Origin: Cyanothece sp. BG0011
GTDB lineage: Bacteria; Cyanobacteriota; Cyanobacteriia; Cyanobacteriales; Microcystaceae
NCBI RefSeq assembly: GCF_003013815.1
Contig: NZ_PRLH01000191.1
Span: 1-39,372 of the forward strand
Direction of reading: 5' to 3'
DNA length: 39,372 nt
Positions 3,100 to 28,674 of the stretch are shown here, piece after piece. A program made the position numbers and the translations under genes. A model generated the notes under the pieces. That model saw only the letters and a program-made list of their open reading frames with translations, searched no databases and was not told the DNA's origin. How positions within the stretch are numbered: the first letter of the stretch is position 1; each line of letters opens with the position of its first letter.

Positions 3100-3279
3100 C
3101 TATTGCCTTCCTTCATTAGTAGCTTTTATTACTTCAATCATGCTCTTTGTCAGAACATAAATTAAAAGTGATATCGCTAAAATAATAGAGACGGGAACGC
3201 CTCCATTATCAAGTATTACCTTCAGCGTTTCTTCACTAAGAAGAGACACTGAGGAAGTTATGACAGTGGGTTGCATCAT
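3100..3279 (-). CDS. 59-aa single-span membrane protein with an nrdA-derived N-terminus
   Basis: A 59-codon frame starts MMQPTVITS, the same nine residues as NrdA, from a duplicated copy of the nrdA leader. It then continues SVSLLSEETLKVILDNGGVP, followed by a hydrophobic helix (about residues 29-43, VSIILAISLLIYVL) and a short charged tail ending NEGRQ. It is predicted to be a one-pass membrane microprotein with no recognised family. Its promoter region carries the same NrdR-box-like palindromes as nrdA, and a strong hairpin with a T-run follows its stop. It therefore has the parts of a complete transcription unit. An nrd-like expression pattern is inferred. A chance open frame is possible but unlikely given the terminator. 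Confidence 0.65.
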   Translation of the reverse strand: MMQPTVITSSVSLLSEETLKVILDNGGVPVSIILAISLLIYVLTKSMIEVIKATNEGRQ

Positions 3280-3491
3280 TTATATTACTAAGTCTAATCA
3301 GAAAACTAATAATTTTGTACTTAATTTTCGTCGAAATTTACGTCAACTTGATAAGGACACTTTTTGATTATACCATAGATATGGTGTAATGTCTGCTAGA
3401 ATTTTTCATTGATTACTCTATATATAGATGATATGGATTTTTACGATAACTGCTTTTGGTGAGGATGATTGTTATCTGAACTACAGTTACA
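3254..3491 (-). repeat. nrdA leader, copy B of the 238-bp direct repeat
   Basis: The upstream duplicate of 2753-2990. It retains the tandem ATG ATG start, the TATAAC-like -10 and both NrdR-box-like palindromes. It drives the 59-codon gene at 3100-3279. The palindrome at 3372 is more symmetrical than the one in copy A (ACCATA-GA-TATGGT). Confidence 0.9.
3372..3430 (-). promoter_or_regulatory. NrdR-box-like palindromes, copy B
   Basis: The palindromes at 3372-3387 and 3415-3430 occupy the same relative positions as those before nrdA. The second is TCTATATATAGA at its centre. Their survival in both copies despite surrounding substitutions favours function. Confidence 0.4.
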
Positions 3492-21352: not shown

Positions 21353-23185
21353 ATGCCAAAATTGACCGCAGTTGGAAAAACAAAAATCATTTCAATTCTT
21401 TGTCAAAGCATACAAAGGTTGAATCGTTGGCCTGACTCAGAAACCATTTTAGTCAGTGGTTTCTCGTGTAGAAAAATAACAATTACCGTCGCAGAAATTC
21501 AAAAAAAATTATCTTATAATGATAATTTATCTGGTTATGAAATAGACTATTTAGCTAAACTTTTGTGGAAAGAGTTGATTTTTCAAAAAATAACTAAAAA
21601 TCGCAAAATTAATTCTTTGAAACAGCTTCAACTTCAATTTGCTCGTGATACTAATGAAGAAGAGAGAAATAGAATCAATTATTCTTTGGATACAATAATT
21701 AAAACTAATAATAAAAGCAATAATCATCAACAAAATGACTCTGATTTGATTAATTTTCTCAATGATGAAGCCTGTTATGAAGCCTATAAAACTTTTTATA
21801 TTACTAATGGTTCTTTTCGGACTTGCCAAAGATTTTTACAAGCATCAGCAAAAGAAAGTCAAAGTTCGACAACAGTAAAATATCTGGTTAACACAGTTAA
21901 TAATTTAGCCCAAAGCTTAAAAATTGATATTTTTGACATCAATGATTTATTTTTATTTGAATATCAACAAAAAGATTTGAAGCCTGAAGTTATTCTATCT
22001 ATTAAAAAAGAATCTTTACAAAATTTGAGAAACATTTTACAAAATCTTAGAAAAATTTTCTCTAACGATAATAACTTACCTGATATTAGTAAGATTCAGC
22101 AATATTATCTTGAGAAAAGTGGATGGAATACTCTAAAAAGAGGTAAAAAACCTGATCTTCTTACCTATTTATCAGAAAGAAAAGAAAATACTTTGTTAAG
22201 GTTTATCGCACATTTGATTAAATCAACTAATAATGATTTAGCAGAAGAACTGACTAATTGGTTGACAGTAAAAGGATGCTTTTTTGCTCAAACTCCTCAA
22301 GAATTTGATGCTGATCAATTTTTACGTCAATTTACTATACTTCTTGATATGAATGATAATCTTCCTCATTCTCAATCGTCACCTCAATCATTTCTCATGA
22401 TTAGCTTTAAAAAATCAAATAACAATTATAAAATTAGTTGTTGGTTTGCTTCAGAAAATCAATCAACACCAAGAAATATCCATCAATCAACCTTAACTAA
22501 TTTGAGAGAAATTAACCAAGAATTAGATAATACAGTTCAAAATTGCATGAATCAAATTATAGAGAAGGAATGGTTAGGATTTCACGAAGCTATTTCTTCT
22601 ATGAGAATAGAACTTTTCGTAGATTATAATTTAATTAATCTAGATTATTATGCTTGGGAATTTAAAATAGGAAGAAAAAAGAGAAGATTGCCTAATATTA
22701 TTTTACGGTTACAAGAAAGACAAGAATTAGTACAAATGCTTAATGATAAAAAATCACTATCAAGTAGTACGAGGCAAGAACTAACAGAACAGAATGAACA
22801 ATGGAATCAGAAATGGAATCAGTTAAATAATAATCAAGGAAATTTTGGATTAAAAAGTCAAATGCCAAGTCCTTATATTGGACTAAAATCTTGGAATTCT
22901 TTAACTCACTATTGTCTTGAATATTTAATTGATGATAGCTTACCAGCAGCGATTTGGTATAGAAATAAAAATGATCAATTTCGTCAAGAAATGATAGAAA
23001 CTACCATCAATAATTTACTGAAAAATAATATTAATCAGCTTCCTGATAAGTTGAGTAAAATTCGTAAACAAGCGAATGGAAATCCCACAGAAGTTGCTTC
23101 TCATTTATCATTACTGTGGGACCCTCCGAATCGTCCCCTTCCCCCCGAACCTGACAGTGAAAATTATCCCCTTGGACTTTTTTAA
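21353..23185 (+). CDS. VMAP-like protein (vWA-MoxR-associated) of a ternary conflict system
   Basis: 610 residues, very rich in Asn, Gln, Lys and Ile. The C-terminal half (about 330-610) fits the VMAP-C domain: SMRIELFVDYNLINLDYYAW, RLPNIILRLQER, WNQKWNQL, DSLPAAIWYR, and the closing HLSLLWDPPNRPLPPEPD typical of VMAP. The N-terminal ~320 residues are helical. They include a possible small effector-associated domain (1-80) and a segment around FRTCQRFLQASAKES, with no catalytic motif I recognise. Known ternary systems combine VMAP, a MoxR ATPase and a vWA protein as a signal-gated device coupled to an effector. It is separated from the MoxR gene by 2 bp. The VMAP call rests on motif recognition plus neighbourhood. 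Confidence 0.75.
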   Translation: MPKLTAVGKTKIISILCQSIQRLNRWPDSETILVSGFSCRKITITVAEIQKKLSYNDNLSGYEIDYLAKLLWKELIFQKITKNRKINSLKQLQLQFARDTNEEERNRINYSLDTIIKTNNKSNNHQQNDSDLINFLNDEACYEAYKTFYITNGSFRTCQRFLQASAKESQSSTTVKYLVNTVNNLAQSLKIDIFDINDLFLFEYQQKDLKPEVILSIKKESLQNLRNILQNLRKIFSNDNNLPDISKIQQYYLEKSGWNTLKRGKKPDLLTYLSERKENTLLRFIAHLIKSTNNDLAEELTNWLTVKGCFFAQTPQEFDADQFLRQFTILLDMNDNLPHSQSSPQSFLMISFKKSNNNYKISCWFASENQSTPRNIHQSTLTNLREINQELDNTVQNCMNQIIEKEWLGFHEAISSMRIELFVDYNLINLDYYAWEFKIGRKKRRLPNIILRLQERQELVQMLNDKKSLSSSTRQELTEQNEQWNQKWNQLNNNQGNFGLKSQMPSPYIGLKSWNSLTHYCLEYLIDDSLPAAIWYRNKNDQFRQEMIETTINNLLKNNINQLPDKLSKIRKQANGNPTEVASHLSLLWDPPNRPLPPEPDSENYPLGLF

Positions 23186-23187
23186 TT

Positions 23188-24219
23188 ATGACTTGGAAAC
23201 TATTTGAAGGCAACGGAACCCCTAAACCTGATAATTATTGGCCCAAACCCGAAGAAGACAAAAAAAATCCCCTTCCACCCCCTCCAACTTGGCGAGATTT
23301 TAGTGATCAAAAAGCAATGGATGAACGCAGGGGAAGAACCTTTCAAATTCCCAAAGACGATAAAATTATTGATTTAATCAATGCTGCCCTTTATTTACGT
23401 CGTCCCTTATTAGTTGAAGGTGAACCAGGAAGTGGCAAAAGTTCTTTGGCCTATGCAGTTGCTTATGAATTAGGTCTAGGAGAGGTCTTAAAATGGTCGA
23501 TTACTACCCGTTCTACCCTAACAGAAGGGTTATATTATTATGATGCTATTGGACGATTACGGGATACTCAACTAATGGGAAAAGAAAAAAACCCAGATGT
23601 TTTAGACCCCATTAAAAATATTGGAAACTATATTACTTTGGGACCCTTGGGAACAGCTTTTTTACCTCCGAAGAAAGGAGAAGCAAAAAAACCCAGAGTT
23701 TTGTTAATTGATGAAATCGATAAGAGTGATATTGACCTTCCTGACGATTTATTACAGATTTTTGAGGAAGGACGCTTTGAAATACCTGAATTAAAAAGAA
23801 TTGCTAAACAAAAGCGTTTAGTCGATGTTCGTACTTATGATCAGAAGATACGAACAATTGAGAATGGTTTTGTTCCTTGTGAAGTCTTTCCTTTTGTTGT
23901 TTTAACTAGCAACGGTAAACGAGACTTTCCTCCTGCATTTTTGAGACGTTGTTTACGAATTCAAATGAAAAAACCGACAAGAGATCATTTAGAAAACATT
24001 GTCAAAGCACATTTTGATGAAACAATAGTTACTAAAGCTGATCCCTATATTAAGGAATTTCTTGATTTAATTGAAGACGGGAATAAGTTGGCCATCGATC
24101 AATTATTGAATACTATTTTTTTGTTAACAAATGGCAACATAGATGAAAAGAATTTGAAAGCCCATCTTTTACAATCGTTAGATAGTTCAATGATGCCTGA
24201 AGATGAGAGTAACGGGTAA
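23188..24219 (+). CDS. MoxR-type AAA+ ATPase of the ternary system
   Basis: 343 residues. Walker A is GEPGSGKSS (about 78-86), Walker B is VLLIDEIDK (about 172-180), sensor 1 is VVLTSNGKRDFPPAF, and the arginine motif is FLRRCLRI. A proline-rich N-terminus (NPLPPPPTWRDF) precedes the ATPase core. MoxR ATPases act with vWA proteins as chaperone-like switches that drive conformational change in partner proteins. The gene is wedged between the VMAP gene (2-bp gap) and the vWA/FGE gene (5-bp gap), so the three are almost certainly co-translated. ATP hydrolysis should be intact. Confidence 0.92.
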   Translation: MTWKLFEGNGTPKPDNYWPKPEEDKKNPLPPPPTWRDFSDQKAMDERRGRTFQIPKDDKIIDLINAALYLRRPLLVEGEPGSGKSSLAYAVAYELGLGEVLKWSITTRSTLTEGLYYYDAIGRLRDTQLMGKEKNPDVLDPIKNIGNYITLGPLGTAFLPPKKGEAKKPRVLLIDEIDKSDIDLPDDLLQIFEEGRFEIPELKRIAKQKRLVDVRTYDQKIRTIENGFVPCEVFPFVVLTSNGKRDFPPAFLRRCLRIQMKKPTRDHLENIVKAHFDETIVTKADPYIKEFLDLIEDGNKLAIDQLLNTIFLLTNGNIDEKNLKAHLLQSLDSSMMPEDESNG

Positions 24220-24224
24220 AAATA

Positions 24225-26945
24225 ATGTCTAGATTAACTGATTTAATTGAACAATTAAAGCGTGAATATCCATCAGAATTAGACCTAAATGTTGAAGAAC
24301 TTTTAGACGCACTTTGGTTTACTATTGTTACATCACAATCAGAAGAAAAGCCAACAGTCAATCAATCACGTGATACACCTTCTTTATCCCAGTCAGAACC
24401 CTCATTAAACACTCCCTCTCAACCTCCCCCACCAATTAAAACAGAAGCAGAAAACTATCCCCCTGAGCGTAAATTTCCTAGTTATGCTAACACGGATAAA
24501 ATAGATTCAAAAAGTAAGTCAAAAGGGATTTTTTTTGATGTTCAAGATCCCCCTGCAATTCCTGACTTTTGGAAACAAGAAATTTGTCGTACTTTGCAAA
24601 CTTTACGGCGAAAAATACCGAGCAATAAAAGCCAAGAAATAGACGAAGAAGCCACCGTTCAATTTATCGGAGAAACAGAACTTTATGAACCTATTTTTAA
24701 GCCTAAATTTAAGCGATCGCTTTCTATTTCCCTTATTATTGAATTAGAAAAATCTGTTTTAATTTGGTACAAAGTTGTAAAAGAAATAGAAGCAATATTT
24801 AAAAAGATTGGAGTGTTTCATGAAATTAATATTTTCTGGATAAAAACTAATGATGAAAACCAAGTAATTTTACAATCATCTTATAAAGATAATTCAGTAA
24901 AATATAAGCCGGAACAAATTATTAATAATTCCCCTGCTGAACAATTAATCATAATTATTAGTGATTTTTCTTCAGTCCGTTGGTATCAAAATTATTATAC
25001 AAATATTCTAGATAAATGGAGTCAAAAAGCCCTTGTTACCCTCTTACAATTATTTCCTAAACGCCTTTGGAATAGAACAGCTTTAGATCGTAAAAACCCA
25101 GTTATTTTACAATCTCCTTCAATGGGAGAAACTAATTCACCCTACACACTCAATCAACAATTAACTATCAAAGATTCATTATTATCTCATCAACAAAACT
25201 ATTTAAAACTTCCTATTATTACTTTAGACCCTCAATCCCTACAAAAATGGGTTAATTTAGTTAGTGGACAAAAGCAAGTTAACTTACCAGGAATTTTAGT
25301 TAAGAAAACTAATTTATCTAATTTACATACCGAATCTAAACCTTCACAAATCATTCAATCTTTATCCTCTGAACAAATCTTAAACCGTTTTTATGAAAAT
25401 GCCTCAGAAAAAGCTCAAGAATTAGCCCATCGTCTCAGTGCTGTTCCTGTGACTTTCCCTATTATTCGTCTCATTATTCAAGCAGTTCCTTCTTTATCTT
25501 CTGAAAATTTCAAAACAAAAAAAGTAAAAAAGGCATCATTTTTAAATTCAATTGTTAACTTGAATCATGACTATGAACTTCCTGCCGTAATTATTGCCGA
25601 AGTTTTAATGGGGGGACTGTTTAACCCCTTATCAAGTCCGATTAACTCTCTAAGTTCTGACTCTTTTAATCTCATTGAATTAGAATTTAAACCAGAGATT
25701 CGAGAAGCTTTAGAACAAGAAGCCACAGAAGAAGAATTAGTAGATACTATCACCCTAATTTCTGATTATATTTCTCAATATTTAGGAGAGGATCAAGATA
25801 TTTTTGAAGCTCTTTTATTAGACTCTTCTTTAAAAGCTGAATTACCAGAGTCAGTTCGTCATTTTGCCGAAATATCTGCTTCAACTTTACAGAATTTAGG
25901 GGGTGTTTATAGTGAATTTGTGAAGCAATACACCACAGCAGAATCGTCTGTTTCTCAACCTTCTGAAATTCCCCTATTAGAAACATTAGAAACATTTGAA
26001 TTTGAAGCAGAAGTCGCCATCATTGTCTTTGAAGAAGAACCTTTACAACAATGGACTTTTGAAACCCCCACAGTAAACCGTCGTGGCGAAATCATCAAAA
26101 CCACTACCCATACCGCCTCCTACTTCAACGAACCTTTGACGGATAACGTTATACTCACAATGGTAGCGATCCCTGGTGGCACTTTTACAATGGGTTCTTC
26201 CGAAAATGAAGGTTATAGTAATGAACAGCCTCAACATAATGTTACTCTTTCTGCTTTTTTCATGGGTAAATATCCCATTACTCAAGCTCAATGGAAAGCG
26301 ATCGCTTCTCAAACTAATCTAAAAGTTAACATCGACTTAGACGAAGATCCCTCAAACTTTAAAGGGGATAACCGACCTGTTGAACGAGTTAATTGGTACG
26401 AAGCGGTAGAATTCTGTCAACGCCTCTCTAAGCTTACAGGAAGGCACTATCAGCTACCCTCAGAAGCCCAATGGGAATACGCTTGTCGTGCTGTCTCAGA
26501 ACCTCTAGACCTCGAAAAAGGTGAATCCTACCCACCCTTCTACTTTGGAGATACCATCACAGGAGAACTAGCTAATTATGATGCTTCTAACACTTATGCT
26601 GATGAACCATCAGGAGAAGAAAGCCAAGAAACAACCTCGGTCGGTCAATTCCCCCCTAATGTCTTTGGATTGTACGATATGCACGGGAACGTCTGGGAAT
26701 GGTGTGCTGACGACTGGCATGATAATTATGAAGACGCACCTAATGATGGTAGTGCTTGGATGGAATTTGAAGCCTCATATTTAGCCAAAAATAAGCAAAA
26801 TTATTCAAAATCAGTATTTCGGGGCGGTTCTTGGGGCAACAATCCTTATTACTGCCGTTCCGCTTATCGCCTCAACTACGATTCGCGCGACTACCACCTC
26901 GGCAATATCGGTTTTCGGGTAGTATGTGTGTTCGGGAGTGAATGA
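24225..26945 (+). CDS. SAV_2336-type degenerate vWA protein fused to an FGE-sulfatase domain
   Basis: 906 residues. Residues 105-290 match the SAV_2336-related N-terminal module: LRRKIPSNKSQEIDEEATVQ, then SISLIIELEKSV, IIIISDFSSVRWY, and LLQLFPKRLWNRTAL. This module is a vWA-like fold, but the expected DxSxS MIDAS reads ELEKS, so metal binding is probably lost. A helical linker (290-640) follows. Residues 646-906 are a formylglycine-generating-enzyme/C-type-lectin domain (VAIPGGTFTMGS, YPITQAQWKA, LPSEAQWEYACRA, MHGNVWEWCADDW, GFRVVC). The catalytic cysteine pair of true FGE is absent, suggesting ligand binding. The end of the gene (26835-26909) is a candidate DGR variable region. Confidence 0.85.
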   Translation: MSRLTDLIEQLKREYPSELDLNVEELLDALWFTIVTSQSEEKPTVNQSRDTPSLSQSEPSLNTPSQPPPPIKTEAENYPPERKFPSYANTDKIDSKSKSKGIFFDVQDPPAIPDFWKQEICRTLQTLRRKIPSNKSQEIDEEATVQFIGETELYEPIFKPKFKRSLSISLIIELEKSVLIWYKVVKEIEAIFKKIGVFHEINIFWIKTNDENQVILQSSYKDNSVKYKPEQIINNSPAEQLIIIISDFSSVRWYQNYYTNILDKWSQKALVTLLQLFPKRLWNRTALDRKNPVILQSPSMGETNSPYTLNQQLTIKDSLLSHQQNYLKLPIITLDPQSLQKWVNLVSGQKQVNLPGILVKKTNLSNLHTESKPSQIIQSLSSEQILNRFYENASEKAQELAHRLSAVPVTFPIIRLIIQAVPSLSSENFKTKKVKKASFLNSIVNLNHDYELPAVIIAEVLMGGLFNPLSSPINSLSSDSFNLIELEFKPEIREALEQEATEEELVDTITLISDYISQYLGEDQDIFEALLLDSSLKAELPESVRHFAEISASTLQNLGGVYSEFVKQYTTAESSVSQPSEIPLLETLETFEFEAEVAIIVFEEEPLQQWTFETPTVNRRGEIIKTTTHTASYFNEPLTDNVILTMVAIPGGTFTMGSSENEGYSNEQPQHNVTLSAFFMGKYPITQAQWKAIASQTNLKVNIDLDEDPSNFKGDNRPVERVNWYEAVEFCQRLSKLTGRHYQLPSEAQWEYACRAVSEPLDLEKGESYPPFYFGDTITGELANYDASNTYADEPSGEESQETTSVGQFPPNVFGLYDMHGNVWEWCADDWHDNYEDAPNDGSAWMEFEASYLAKNKQNYSKSVFRGGSWGNNPYYCRSAYRLNYDSRDYHLGNIGFRVVCVFGSE
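26835..26909 (+). other. Candidate DGR variable region 1 (25 codons)
   Basis: Aligns without gaps to 28531-28605 at an offset of 1696 bp. There are 27 mismatches in 75 bp, 14 at codon position 1, 10 at position 2 and only 3 at position 3. The flanking 14 bp 5' (GGGGCGGTTCTTGG) and 31 bp 3' are identical in both copies. Variable codons keep a fixed C or T third base, as expected if template AAC/AAT codons were randomised at adenines. Confidence 0.8.
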
Positions 26946-26978
26946 AGTCAGAAGTCAGAAGTTTGAAGTCAGAAGTGT
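26944..26978 (+). repeat. Heptamer array (GAAGTCA type) after variable region 1
   Basis: Five tandem heptamers (GAAGTCA, GAAGTCA, GAAGTTT, GAAGTCA, GAAGTGT) start at the stop codon. Near-identical to 28640-28674 and an exact 20-bp inverted match to 27733-27752. Confidence 0.9.
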
Positions 26979-27031
26979 TTTTAAACAGTCTTAAAGTGAA
27001 ATAAAATTAAATTAGTATATTATCCAATAAG

Positions 27032-27388
27032 ATGATAAATAAACCGAAGGTTTCGATTCAGGAAAAAACTAAAAAGTTTGCTGTTAGAATAATAAAAGCT
27101 TGTGTTTGGTTAGAAAAACAATCAAACGTTAGTCGAACTTTAGCTAATCAATTATTAAGGTCTGGAACTTCTATTGGAGCAAATTGTAGTGAAGCCAAAT
27201 CTGCACAATCAACAAGAGATTTTATCAGTAAATATGAAATTGCTCTCAAAGAAGCAAGAGAAACATTATACTGGTTAGAAATTCTTATAGAAGCCGAATT
27301 AGTACCATTAGAAAAGTTTAAAGGACTCATGCAGGAAACAGAAGAGATCATCAAAATATTAGTTTCCAGTCTAAAAAAACTAAAATAA
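27032..27388 (+). CDS. Four-helix-bundle protein (23S IVP / Avd-like)
   Basis: 118 residues, mostly charged helices. The motif SRTLANQLLRSGTSIGANCSE, with AKSAQSTRDFISKYEIALKE and ARETLYWLEILIEAEL, defines the TIGR02436 four-helix-bundle family. That family contains the 23S rRNA intervening-sequence proteins and is structurally related to Avd, the accessory subunit of DGR reverse transcriptases. It is basic and may bind RNA. It lies between two genes with candidate DGR variable regions, which makes an Avd role attractive. However, most family members are not linked to DGRs and no reverse transcriptase is in the window. It is bracketed by inverted heptamer repeats. Confidence 0.85.
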   Translation: MINKPKVSIQEKTKKFAVRIIKACVWLEKQSNVSRTLANQLLRSGTSIGANCSEAKSAQSTRDFISKYEIALKEARETLYWLEILIEAELVPLEKFKGLMQETEEIIKILVSSLKKLK

Positions 27389-27428
27389 TAAGCTTCTGAC
27401 TTCATTAAAGACTATATCTTAAAATCTC

Positions 27429-27656
27429 ATGAAAACAATTCAATTAAGTAAACTAAAACAAGAAGATTTATTAACTCAAAAAGAAACAATTTCCATAGCC
27501 TATAATAATGAAATTATAGGCTATTACAATCCTGTTATTGATTACTATGAAGCCAAAAAAGCAAAAGAAGAACTTGATATAGTTATGGAAAAAGTATTAA
27601 AAGAAACAGGTTTAACAGAAGAAGAATATGTGTCAATGTTTATGAATAAAGTTTAA
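27429..27656 (+). CDS. 75-aa antitoxin-like small protein
   Basis: MKTIQLSKLKQEDLLTQKET leads into ISIAYNNEIIGYYNPVIDYY, reminiscent of the Phd/YefM beta-hairpin (xISxxxNxxxVGxxxP) that binds operator DNA. The C-terminal helix KKAKEELDIVMEKVLKETGL could be the toxin-binding part. No toxin gene follows. The next frame (27657) is only a remnant of a four-helix-bundle gene, overlapping as TAAATG. Probably an orphan antitoxin-type regulator; assignment is tentative. Confidence 0.5.
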   Translation: MKTIQLSKLKQEDLLTQKETISIAYNNEIIGYYNPVIDYYEAKKAKEELDIVMEKVLKETGLTEEEYVSMFMNKV

Positions 27657-27734
27657 ATGACTCATGAAAGAAAAGAAAAAATTATCAAAATTTTAGTATC
27701 AATCCTAAAAAAGCTCAAAAAACAAAACTTCTAA
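27657..27734 (+). pseudogene. 3' remnant of a second four-helix-bundle gene
   Basis: A 25-codon frame encodes EKIIKILVSILKKLKKQNF, matching the tail of the intact protein (EEIIKILVSSLKKLK). The nucleotide sequences also align (CTCATG...ATCAAAAT.TTAGT...CTAAAAAA). The rest of that gene is missing, replaced upstream by the antitoxin-like gene. It indicates that a four-helix-bundle plus FGE unit was duplicated and then partly lost. Confidence 0.7.
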
Positions 27735-27752
27735 CTTCTGACTTCTGACTTC
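27733..27752 (-). repeat. Inverted copy of the heptamer array
   Basis: The exact reverse complement of 26944-26963 (20 of 20). It closes an ~810-bp segment that holds the four-helix-bundle gene, the antitoxin-like gene and the remnant. Confidence 0.9.
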
Positions 27753-27762
27753 AAAAACGGCC

Positions 27763-28641
27763 ATGGCTGAAAAAATGATAATCAAACGTCCAAAACAAAA
27801 GTTTAGAGGGTATAGAGATTATATCGATGATGTTCCTTTAGAACTGGCTTTAATCCCCCATGGTACCTTCACGATGGGCGCACCAGAAGATGAAGAAGGC
27901 ACTCGTGACAACGAAAGACCCCAACATGACGTAACCATCTCCTCCTTTCTCATGGGACGTTACCCTGTCACCCAAGCTCAATGGAAAGCGATCGCTCTTC
28001 ATACAGACTTAAAGGTAAACATAGACTTAGAAGAAGATCCCTCTCATTTTAAAAAACCGTATGAAGGCATAGATCGATGGCTTAGACCCGTTGAACAAGT
28101 TAACTGGTATGAAGCCGTAGAGTTCTGTCAACGCCTCTCACAACTAACAGGAAGGGACTATCAACTCCCCAGTGAAGCGCAATGGGAATATGCTTGTCGG
28201 GCTGGAACCACCACCCCCTTTCATTTTGGAGACACCATCACCACCGACTTAGCTAACTATAATGGTGCAAGTGAAAATTATGGATCTTATGGTAAAGGTC
28301 CCAAAGGAGAGTTTCGAGAACAAACCACCCCAGTCGGGTGTTTTGATGTGGCCAATGCTTTCGGCCTAAGTGATATGCACGGGAACGTCTGGGAATGGTG
28401 TCTTGATGACTGGCATAATAATTATGAAAATGCGCCTAATGATGGTAGTGCTTGGATGGAATTTGAACCCTCATATTTAGCCAAAAATAAGCAAAATAAC
28501 TCAAATTGCGTGATGCGGGGCGGTTCTTGGCTCGACCTTCCTAATTACTGCCGTTCAGCGATCCGCTACGACGGCGATGGGCGCGTCGTCCTCAGCAGCG
28601 ATCTCGGTTTTCGGGTAGTATGTGTGTTCGGGAGTGGATGA
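27763..28641 (+). CDS. Stand-alone FGE-sulfatase / C-type-lectin-fold protein
   Basis: 292 residues, essentially the FGE domain alone: LALIPHGTFTMGAPEDEEGT, GRYPVTQAQWKAIA, LPSEAQWEYACRAGTT, MHGNVWEWCLDDW, VMRGGSW and GFRVVCVFGS. It is a close paralogue of the domain at the end of the 906-residue vWA protein, including long identical nucleotide stretches. The paired catalytic cysteines of true formylglycine-generating enzymes are missing, so a binding role is more likely than sulfatase activation. No clear ribosome binding site precedes the ATG, since a heptamer repeat occupies that space. Codons at 28531-28605 form candidate variable region 2. Confidence 0.88.
   Translation: MAEKMIIKRPKQKFRGYRDYIDDVPLELALIPHGTFTMGAPEDEEGTRDNERPQHDVTISSFLMGRYPVTQAQWKAIALHTDLKVNIDLEEDPSHFKKPYEGIDRWLRPVEQVNWYEAVEFCQRLSQLTGRDYQLPSEAQWEYACRAGTTTPFHFGDTITTDLANYNGASENYGSYGKGPKGEFREQTTPVGCFDVANAFGLSDMHGNVWEWCLDDWHNNYENAPNDGSAWMEFEPSYLAKNKQNNSNCVMRGGSWLDLPNYCRSAIRYDGDGRVVLSSDLGFRVVCVFGSG
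28531..28605 (+). other. Candidate DGR variable region 2 (25 codons)
   Basis: Partner of 26835-26909. Diverged codons alternate with invariant ones: the CCT, TAC-TGC-CGT, CGC, GAT and CGC codons are unchanged. The pattern is that of NNC/NNT randomisation in a C-type-lectin ligand loop. Confidence 0.8.
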
Positions 28642-28674
28642 AGTCAGAAGTCAGAAGTTTGAAGTTTGAAGTGT
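28640..28674 (+). repeat. Heptamer array after variable region 2
   Basis: GAAGTCA, GAAGTCA, GAAGTTT, GAAGTTT, GAAGTGT, a near-copy of 26944-26978. The rest of the gap to 28869 holds another CAGAAGTCAGAAG fragment and AT-rich sequence, with no gene. Confidence 0.9.

Follow-up and report, generated by a model that had tools for sequence, protein, structure and literature searches.

Paired variable regions of apparent retroelement origin in a VMAP ternary conflict locus of Cyanothece sp. BG0011, in an assembly without the retroelement

Diversity-generating retroelements (DGRs) have been reported to accompany about 80% of the VMAP systems of cyanobacteria and gammaproteobacteria, with the template repeat (TR) either close by or in another part of the genome (Kaur et al., 2020, PMC7159879; this and the other papers used for comparison are cited from excerpts). 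The locus described here lies in a 39,372-nucleotide stretch of Cyanothece sp. BG0011 (NZ_PRLH01000191.1, hereafter the window), which is contig C179 of a 227-contig draft assembly (G000) with a listed completeness of 99.96%. Two of its genes, T1 and T2, end in variable regions (VRs) that, judging from their sequences, are DGR variable regions by origin, and neither a DGR reverse transcriptase (RT), nor Avd, nor a TR was found in the assembly. A VMAP ternary conflict locus is of an already known kind; literature searches retrieved no published report of this particular one, which is not proof that none exists.

The window has the VMAP ternary layout that both PMC7159879 and Dore et al. (2024, PMC10907252) describe together with DGRs. 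Like the DGR-associated VMAP ternary systems in the cited part of PMC7159879, it contains VMAP, a MoxR-like ATPase and a variable FGE-type target; unlike them, it belongs to an assembly without RT, Avd or TR, and a Pfam scan of T1 returned no vWA match, the N-terminus of this protein corresponding to NF041121. The MoxR-like gene upstream recalls the cyanobacterial DGRs of clade 5E, and the combination of one long and one short C-type-lectin (CLec) target recalls the arrangement of clade 5A, which has two targets (PMC10907252); those loci are described with a DGR, whereas the resemblance of the window is one of layout. The window also resembles the inactivated DGRs in the excerpted part of Schillinger et al. 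(2012, PMC3521204), where DGR function is lost and VRs remain, although those cases have a broken RT with intact VR and TR whereas the window lacks RT, TR, Avd and the 3' flanks. T2 appears to belong to the same family as Treponema denticola variable protein 1 (PDB 2y3c; profile E 3e-26, aligned through the VR), from which it differs in organism and gene context, and PvdO (5hha) is closer to T2 by sequence than 2y3c (E 7e-47). PF03781 and PDB profile matches predict a C-type-lectin (FGE) fold for the target domain. The features of the locus are as follows.

21353..23185, + strand: VMAP gene, 610 aa, VMAP ternary conflict component (PF20028 VMAP-C, E 4e-14, above cut-off)
23188..24219, + strand: MoxR-like AAA ATPase, 343 aa (AAA_5 and AAA above cut-off; bpMoxR below cut-off only)
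24225..26945, + strand: T1, putative long DGR target with a SAV_2336-type N-terminal domain and a C-terminal FGE/C-type-lectin domain
26821..26940, + strand: variable region 1 (VR1) with fixed borders; variable core 26835-26909
26944..26976, + strand: (GAAGTCA)n heptamer repeat after T1, at the site of the relatives' conserved DGR-target 3' flank
27032..27388, + strand: four-helix-bundle gene (23S rRNA IVP family) at the DGR cassette site (TIGR02436 E 1e-28, PF05635)
27405..27647, + strand: DGR cassette relic of 243 bp, with 87% identity to the G014 sequence that separates Avd from RT
27675..27719, + strand: what remains of the 3' end of another four-helix-bundle gene (15 aa at 87%, tblastn E 7.5e-4)
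27726..27752, - strand: inverted heptamer repeat before T2
27763..28641, + strand: T2, putative short DGR target, FGE/C-type-lectin domain only, 292 aa (PF03781 E 6e-52)
28517..28636, + strand: variable region 2 (VR2) with fixed borders; variable core 28531-28605
28639..28672, + strand: (GAAGTCA)n heptamer repeat after T2, replacing the 3' flank

The 3' ends of T1 and T2 align without gaps (26821-26945 with 28517-28641, offset 1696), as the original prediction, made from the letters of the window, had described. The first 14 bp are identical, as are the 31 bp after the core, and between them 27 of the 75 core positions differ, with 14, 10 and 3 differences at codon positions 1, 2 and 3, respectively. 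The same repeat differs at 16 of 159 bp before the core and at 1 of 60 bp after it, making the core significantly enriched (Fisher p 4e-8). The sharp borders claimed for the variable block hold insofar as an enriched core lies between fixed blocks, but the 5' border is not fully sharp: of the 16 upstream differences, 8 are packed at the density of the core into the 19 bp that immediately precede the fixed 14 bp, although 5 of them are third-position changes, a pattern unlike that of the core. Codons ending in C or T account for 24/25 and 22/25 in the two VRs versus 116/200 and 117/200 upstream.

The VRs were compared with relatives that retain a template. The congeners are G010 (Unicellular cyanobacterium SU3) and the Crocosphaera metagenome-assembled genomes G011, G012, G014, G015 and G016, and the syntenic locus of G010 and G014 reads T1-Avd-RT-TR-T2. 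The Avd of G010 matches NF033474, and its RT carries IGNLTSQ, which is the SQ motif of DGR RTs as defined in the excerpted part of PMC3521204. The four VRs of these two genomes differ from their own TR at 11/31, 19/31, 18/32 and 13/32 adenines and at none of the other sites (0/44, 0/44, 0/43 and 0/43). Set against the G014 TR, the VR of T1 is changed at 15/32 adenines and 3/43 other sites (p 8e-5) and that of T2 at 22/32 and 2/43 (p 2e-9). Against the G010 TR the figures are 15/31 and 21/31 adenines and 6/44 and 7/44 others, and the TR of G032, from another genus, fits less well than those of the congeners (13/28 and 17/28 adenines; 7/47 and 8/47 others). The 27 differences between T1 and T2 fall on adenines of the G014 TR in 22 cases (p 4e-7) and of the G010 TR in 21. 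G011 was left out of these counts because its TR core (L075 7256-7136) is 78 nt long and both adjoining VRs 75 nt, so that template and target lengths no longer match, and G025, which carries an insert, was left uncounted. The template adenines that had been deduced from the two VRs are thus present in two congeners, whose TRs lie at the corresponding locus, and against these TRs the pair shows adenine-site differences, fixed borders and a position at the 3' end of a gene with a predicted CLec fold.

A DGR was sought throughout the genome of the window itself. The RVT_1 search of G000 (E 0.001) returned 16 loci, none with (I/V/L)GxxxSQ; nine carry QGxxxSP, which is of group-II type, and seven have neither motif, several of them partial. 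The SQ motif test was positive for eight of ten DGR RT loci. The two that it missed are in G011, where the RT is interrupted, and in G024; because the G024 RT is a complete frame, a DGR RT can escape detection by this motif on its own. The best matches of the G010 RT in G000 are 25-26% identical. NF033474 has two matches in G000, both below cut-off, and is above cut-off in three of nine genus genomes (G010, G011 and G014). The four-helix-bundle gene at 27032-27388 was considered as a stand-in for Avd and rejected, having no similarity to the G010 Avd and not being among the matches to the Avd model. No TR was found in G000 by blastn with the VR, the weak matches of 16-34 bp not being followed singly, and the G010 TR as query recovered only the two VRs, 27 bp of a gene on contig C186 and three matches of 15-22 bp (E 3-6). 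A TR pattern designed on TRs from genomes with a complete DGR RT had no match in G000; it was positive in 5/5 tested genomes with a complete DGR RT (G010, G014, G025, G026 and G032) and negative in 8/8 without one (G000, G015, G016, G017, G023, G027, G029 and G034). In the assembly, T1 and T2 are joined by unbroken sequence that contains no Avd-RT-TR cassette. The original prediction was to fall if the genome held neither a TR nor a DGR RT, and neither was found in the draft assembly; this absence does not refute a DGR origin but means that the DGR is gone from the assembly. Of the proposed DGR interpretation, the origin of the VRs stands, and an active DGR is not supported. A third VR-type FGE gene of G000, on contig C186 (L084 9506-9680), agrees with the G010 TR at 27/27 bp of its 3' constant part and has an unusual downstream flank, and another FGE gene lies near the end of contig C203 (L093), its frame stopping directly after the GF of a VR-like end.

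The locus also bears what look like scars of a loss. In G010, G011 and G014 every VR (6/6) leads into GAACTC, then a pyrimidine tract and a GC hairpin (the hairpin read by eye), whereas this flank follows neither window VR (0/2), both of which run into (GAAGTCA)n. By analogy, the flank would help, or be needed for, homing. The 243-bp relic contains most of a 75-aa open reading frame (27429-27656) of no known Pfam family, which is also present in the RT-less G015 and G016. The RT at the G011 locus is in two pieces (residues 1-198 and 275-351) around a four-helix-bundle gene (L075 7751-8074) that is 56% identical to the window gene at 27032-27388, and G011 has two complete DGR RTs elsewhere in its genome. 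Across the genus the locus is found intact (G010 and G014), with an interrupted RT (G011) and with the RT lost (G000, G015 and G016). G012 holds T1 and a T2 fragment, and a piece of T2 in that genome adjoins a four-helix-bundle (IVP family) fragment (L082 4351-4473).

The genes upstream give these VRs a context. The VMAP gene is 67% and the MoxR-like ATPase 76% identical to its syntenic counterpart in G010, and the position and gene order of the ATPase fit a VMAP ternary system. T1 matches NF041121 (E 8e-83, above cut-off) and, at residues 645-900, PF03781; T2 is 82% identical to that of G010, and both reading frames are open. Outside the VR, T2 and its G010 counterpart are 0.884 identical overall and 0.809 at third positions, and because the latter value is the lower, T2 appears to be still constrained. 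Taken together, it is quite probable that T1 and T2 are the DGR-built sensor pair of a VMAP ternary conflict system, left fixed after loss of the mutator. They would have been the two targets of a DGR serving that system, in which an RT copying an adenine-rich template formerly rewrote the 75-bp cores and so produced binding surfaces of different specificities. Avd, RT, TR and the 3' flanks of both targets would later have been lost in this lineage, perhaps by rearrangement at the heptamer repeats. Because both genes stayed open, their products should act as sensors of fixed specificity, reporting to the MoxR-like and VMAP partners; sensor and defence functions are proposals of the cited authors, extended here by analogy.

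Several observations weigh against this explanation, at least in its simplest form. Five of the 27 T1/T2 differences are misfits to the G014 TR, four of them in the segment TCC-GCG-TAC. The three odd third-position changes noted in the original prediction lie in this stretch, and because this segment varies among the TRs of different species, they are best read as template drift or ordinary mutation. The assembly is a draft, and the VRs were compared with TRs of congeners, the lineage's own TR not being among them. In an rpoB tree (nine genomes, unrooted; one genome per species in the comparison set), RT-less G000 pairs with RT-bearing G010 (support 1.000); RT-less G016 likewise pairs with RT-bearing G014 (0.999), the placement of G015 having a support of 0.448. 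These pairings imply that losses were repeated, if there was no regain. Among sites changed in both, G000 and G015 have common non-template letters at 9/14 in T1 and 12/14 in T2, a pattern that a single late loss in G000 would leave unexplained and that calls for recombination or old VR alleles. The RT-less G016 lacks this sharing of letters; its VRs are 0.547 and 0.640 identical to those of G000 and 0.520 and 0.640 to those of G015. Finally, the remaining VR differences between G000 and G015 still favour TR adenines (10/14 and 12/14), implying that rewriting or selection continued after these VRs parted.

Because a first permutation test of the shared letters had ignored site preferences, a second one used site frequencies taken from 39 VRs. 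These were what remained of 46 distinct 75-nt cores after removal of one that did not pass the skeleton filter and of six TR-like cores with at least 25 A; the G016 VRs, unread by the core pattern or 78 nt long, fall outside this set. By weighted score, the G000-G015 pair ranks among 741 VR pairs first for T2 (p <5e-5) and third for T1 (p 1e-4), with simulated p-values per pair and uncorrected. Second place goes to G000 T2 paired with L139, a VR from Trichodesmium; recent descent is not expected there, which is a reason for caution. After weighting, the T2 VRs of G000 and G011 have p 0.035. By a plain count of identical sites the G000-G015 pair is first for T1 (22) and joint second for T2 (20), with three other pairs. 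G000 and G015 are 0.813 identical in both VRs versus 0.863 and 0.855 outside (T1 and T2), and the RT-bearing G010 and G014 are 0.707 and 0.640 identical in the VRs versus 0.827 and 0.849 outside. A simple freezing since the ancestor of G000 and G015 was considered and is weakened by the rpoB tree, the adenine-biased remaining differences and the RT-less G016. My reading is that the VR pair is old, was transmitted by descent or recombination, underwent some rewriting and was then fixed, in an order that is inferred.

A variant that overlaps with the fixed sensor pair, so that belief in the one does not come at the full expense of the other, is that the VR-bearing ends were recombined in from an RT-less relative such as G015 and the DGR was lost elsewhere. 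It would account for the FGE part of T1 grouping with G014 and G015 (support 0.98) while its N-terminus is G010-like, and for the VR letters and the 3' junction TGAATGAAGTCAGAA that the T1 genes of G000 and G015 have in common; T2, on the other hand, is nearer to G010 (0.884) than to G015 (0.855) outside the VR, and the T2 of G015 retains part of the normal flank, leaving this import possible but doubtful. Less likely still, and improbable on present evidence, is a DGR that is active in trans, with RT, Avd and TR hidden in a gap of the draft or on a plasmid missing from it, from where they would rewrite both VRs. A 227-contig draft, the remote DGR targets known in cyanobacteria (excerpt of PMC7517822) and the adenine bias of the G000-G015 differences are in its favour, whereas the contiguous T1-T2 interval without a cassette, the listed completeness of 99.96%, the failure to find RT, Avd or TR and the loss of the conserved 3' flank at both targets all speak against it. 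That there was never a DGR, and paralogues simply diverged under diversifying selection on a binding face, is very improbable: such selection would likewise favour codon positions 1 and 2, five differences are off-template, the genome has no TR and the 19 bp just before the block diverge too, but the rival is already disfavoured by the match to the TR adenines of two congeners, by the excess of C/T-ending codons over the upstream sequence and by the cassette relic still in place.

Fixed sensors left by a DGR may not be peculiar to this genome. VR-type DNA matches occur in 25 of 50 family genomes, G000 included, and a complete DGR RT (at least 65% identity) in seven (G010, G011, G014, G024, G025, G026 and G032), all VR-positive, so that 18 of the 25 have VR-type DNA without a complete RT of this clade. 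RT fragments are kept in G013 and G029. Two distant RTs of DGR-like length, L105 (G013) and L127 (G018), carry QGxxxSP and were not counted as DGR RTs, and three more distant matches (L106, L118 and L119) have no readable motif; as part of the RVT_1 matches was read for the motif, farther DGR clades in VR-bearing genomes are not fully excluded. The single-contig G023 has six RVT_1 matches, namely five frames of 586-620 aa and one partial, and the RVT_1 search of G027 and G029 returned none. A DNA match alone is not proof of a VR, and 20 of the 21 matches from G023 and G034 were fetched for reading: 19 of the 20 yielded a VR, and C or T is the last letter in 441 of their 460 codons, a figure biased towards this result because the reading with the most C/T was kept where readings were ambiguous. 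In four other FGE paralogues of G000 the corresponding figures are 18/24, 19/25, 20/25 and 19/24, so the contrast is clear but not extreme. In genus g9, 8 of 12 genomes have one and the same VR allele, with at most one codon difference, at their best-match locus (L056, L057, L059-L062, L066 and L067). Two of these eight, G024 and G026, have a DGR RT, so the stability of a VR allele does not need RT loss.

I tentatively suggest that DGR-made sensors routinely outlive their mutator, the RT and TR being dropped and fixed, inherited receptor variants kept. Equally tentatively, such variants might spread by descent and recombination, like a germline receptor repertoire, with RT-bearing relatives supplying new ones. 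DGRs are usually studied with the mutator present. The present genus permits a comparison of mutator and targets among its members, whose intact, interrupted and lost states allow a test of what fixed DGR-made sensors are worth. If orphan VRs are kept by selection, they would be a set of solved binding problems and the sensors would be useful beyond their variability. The family counts suggest, moreover, that surveys that look for the RT first can miss many carriers of DGR-made proteins.

Two minor observations complete the description. In a comparison with L074, L075, L076 and L077, the N-terminus of T1 (24225-26144) is 78.5% identical to that of G010 and approximately 28% identical to those of G011, G014 and G015, the low values excluding the last 40-90 residues, whereas at the FGE end all are alike; from these comparisons, it appears that sensor heads are shuffled between different N-termini. 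Elsewhere in the window, a 239-bp direct repeat (2752-2990 and 3253-3491) is 91% identical between its copies.

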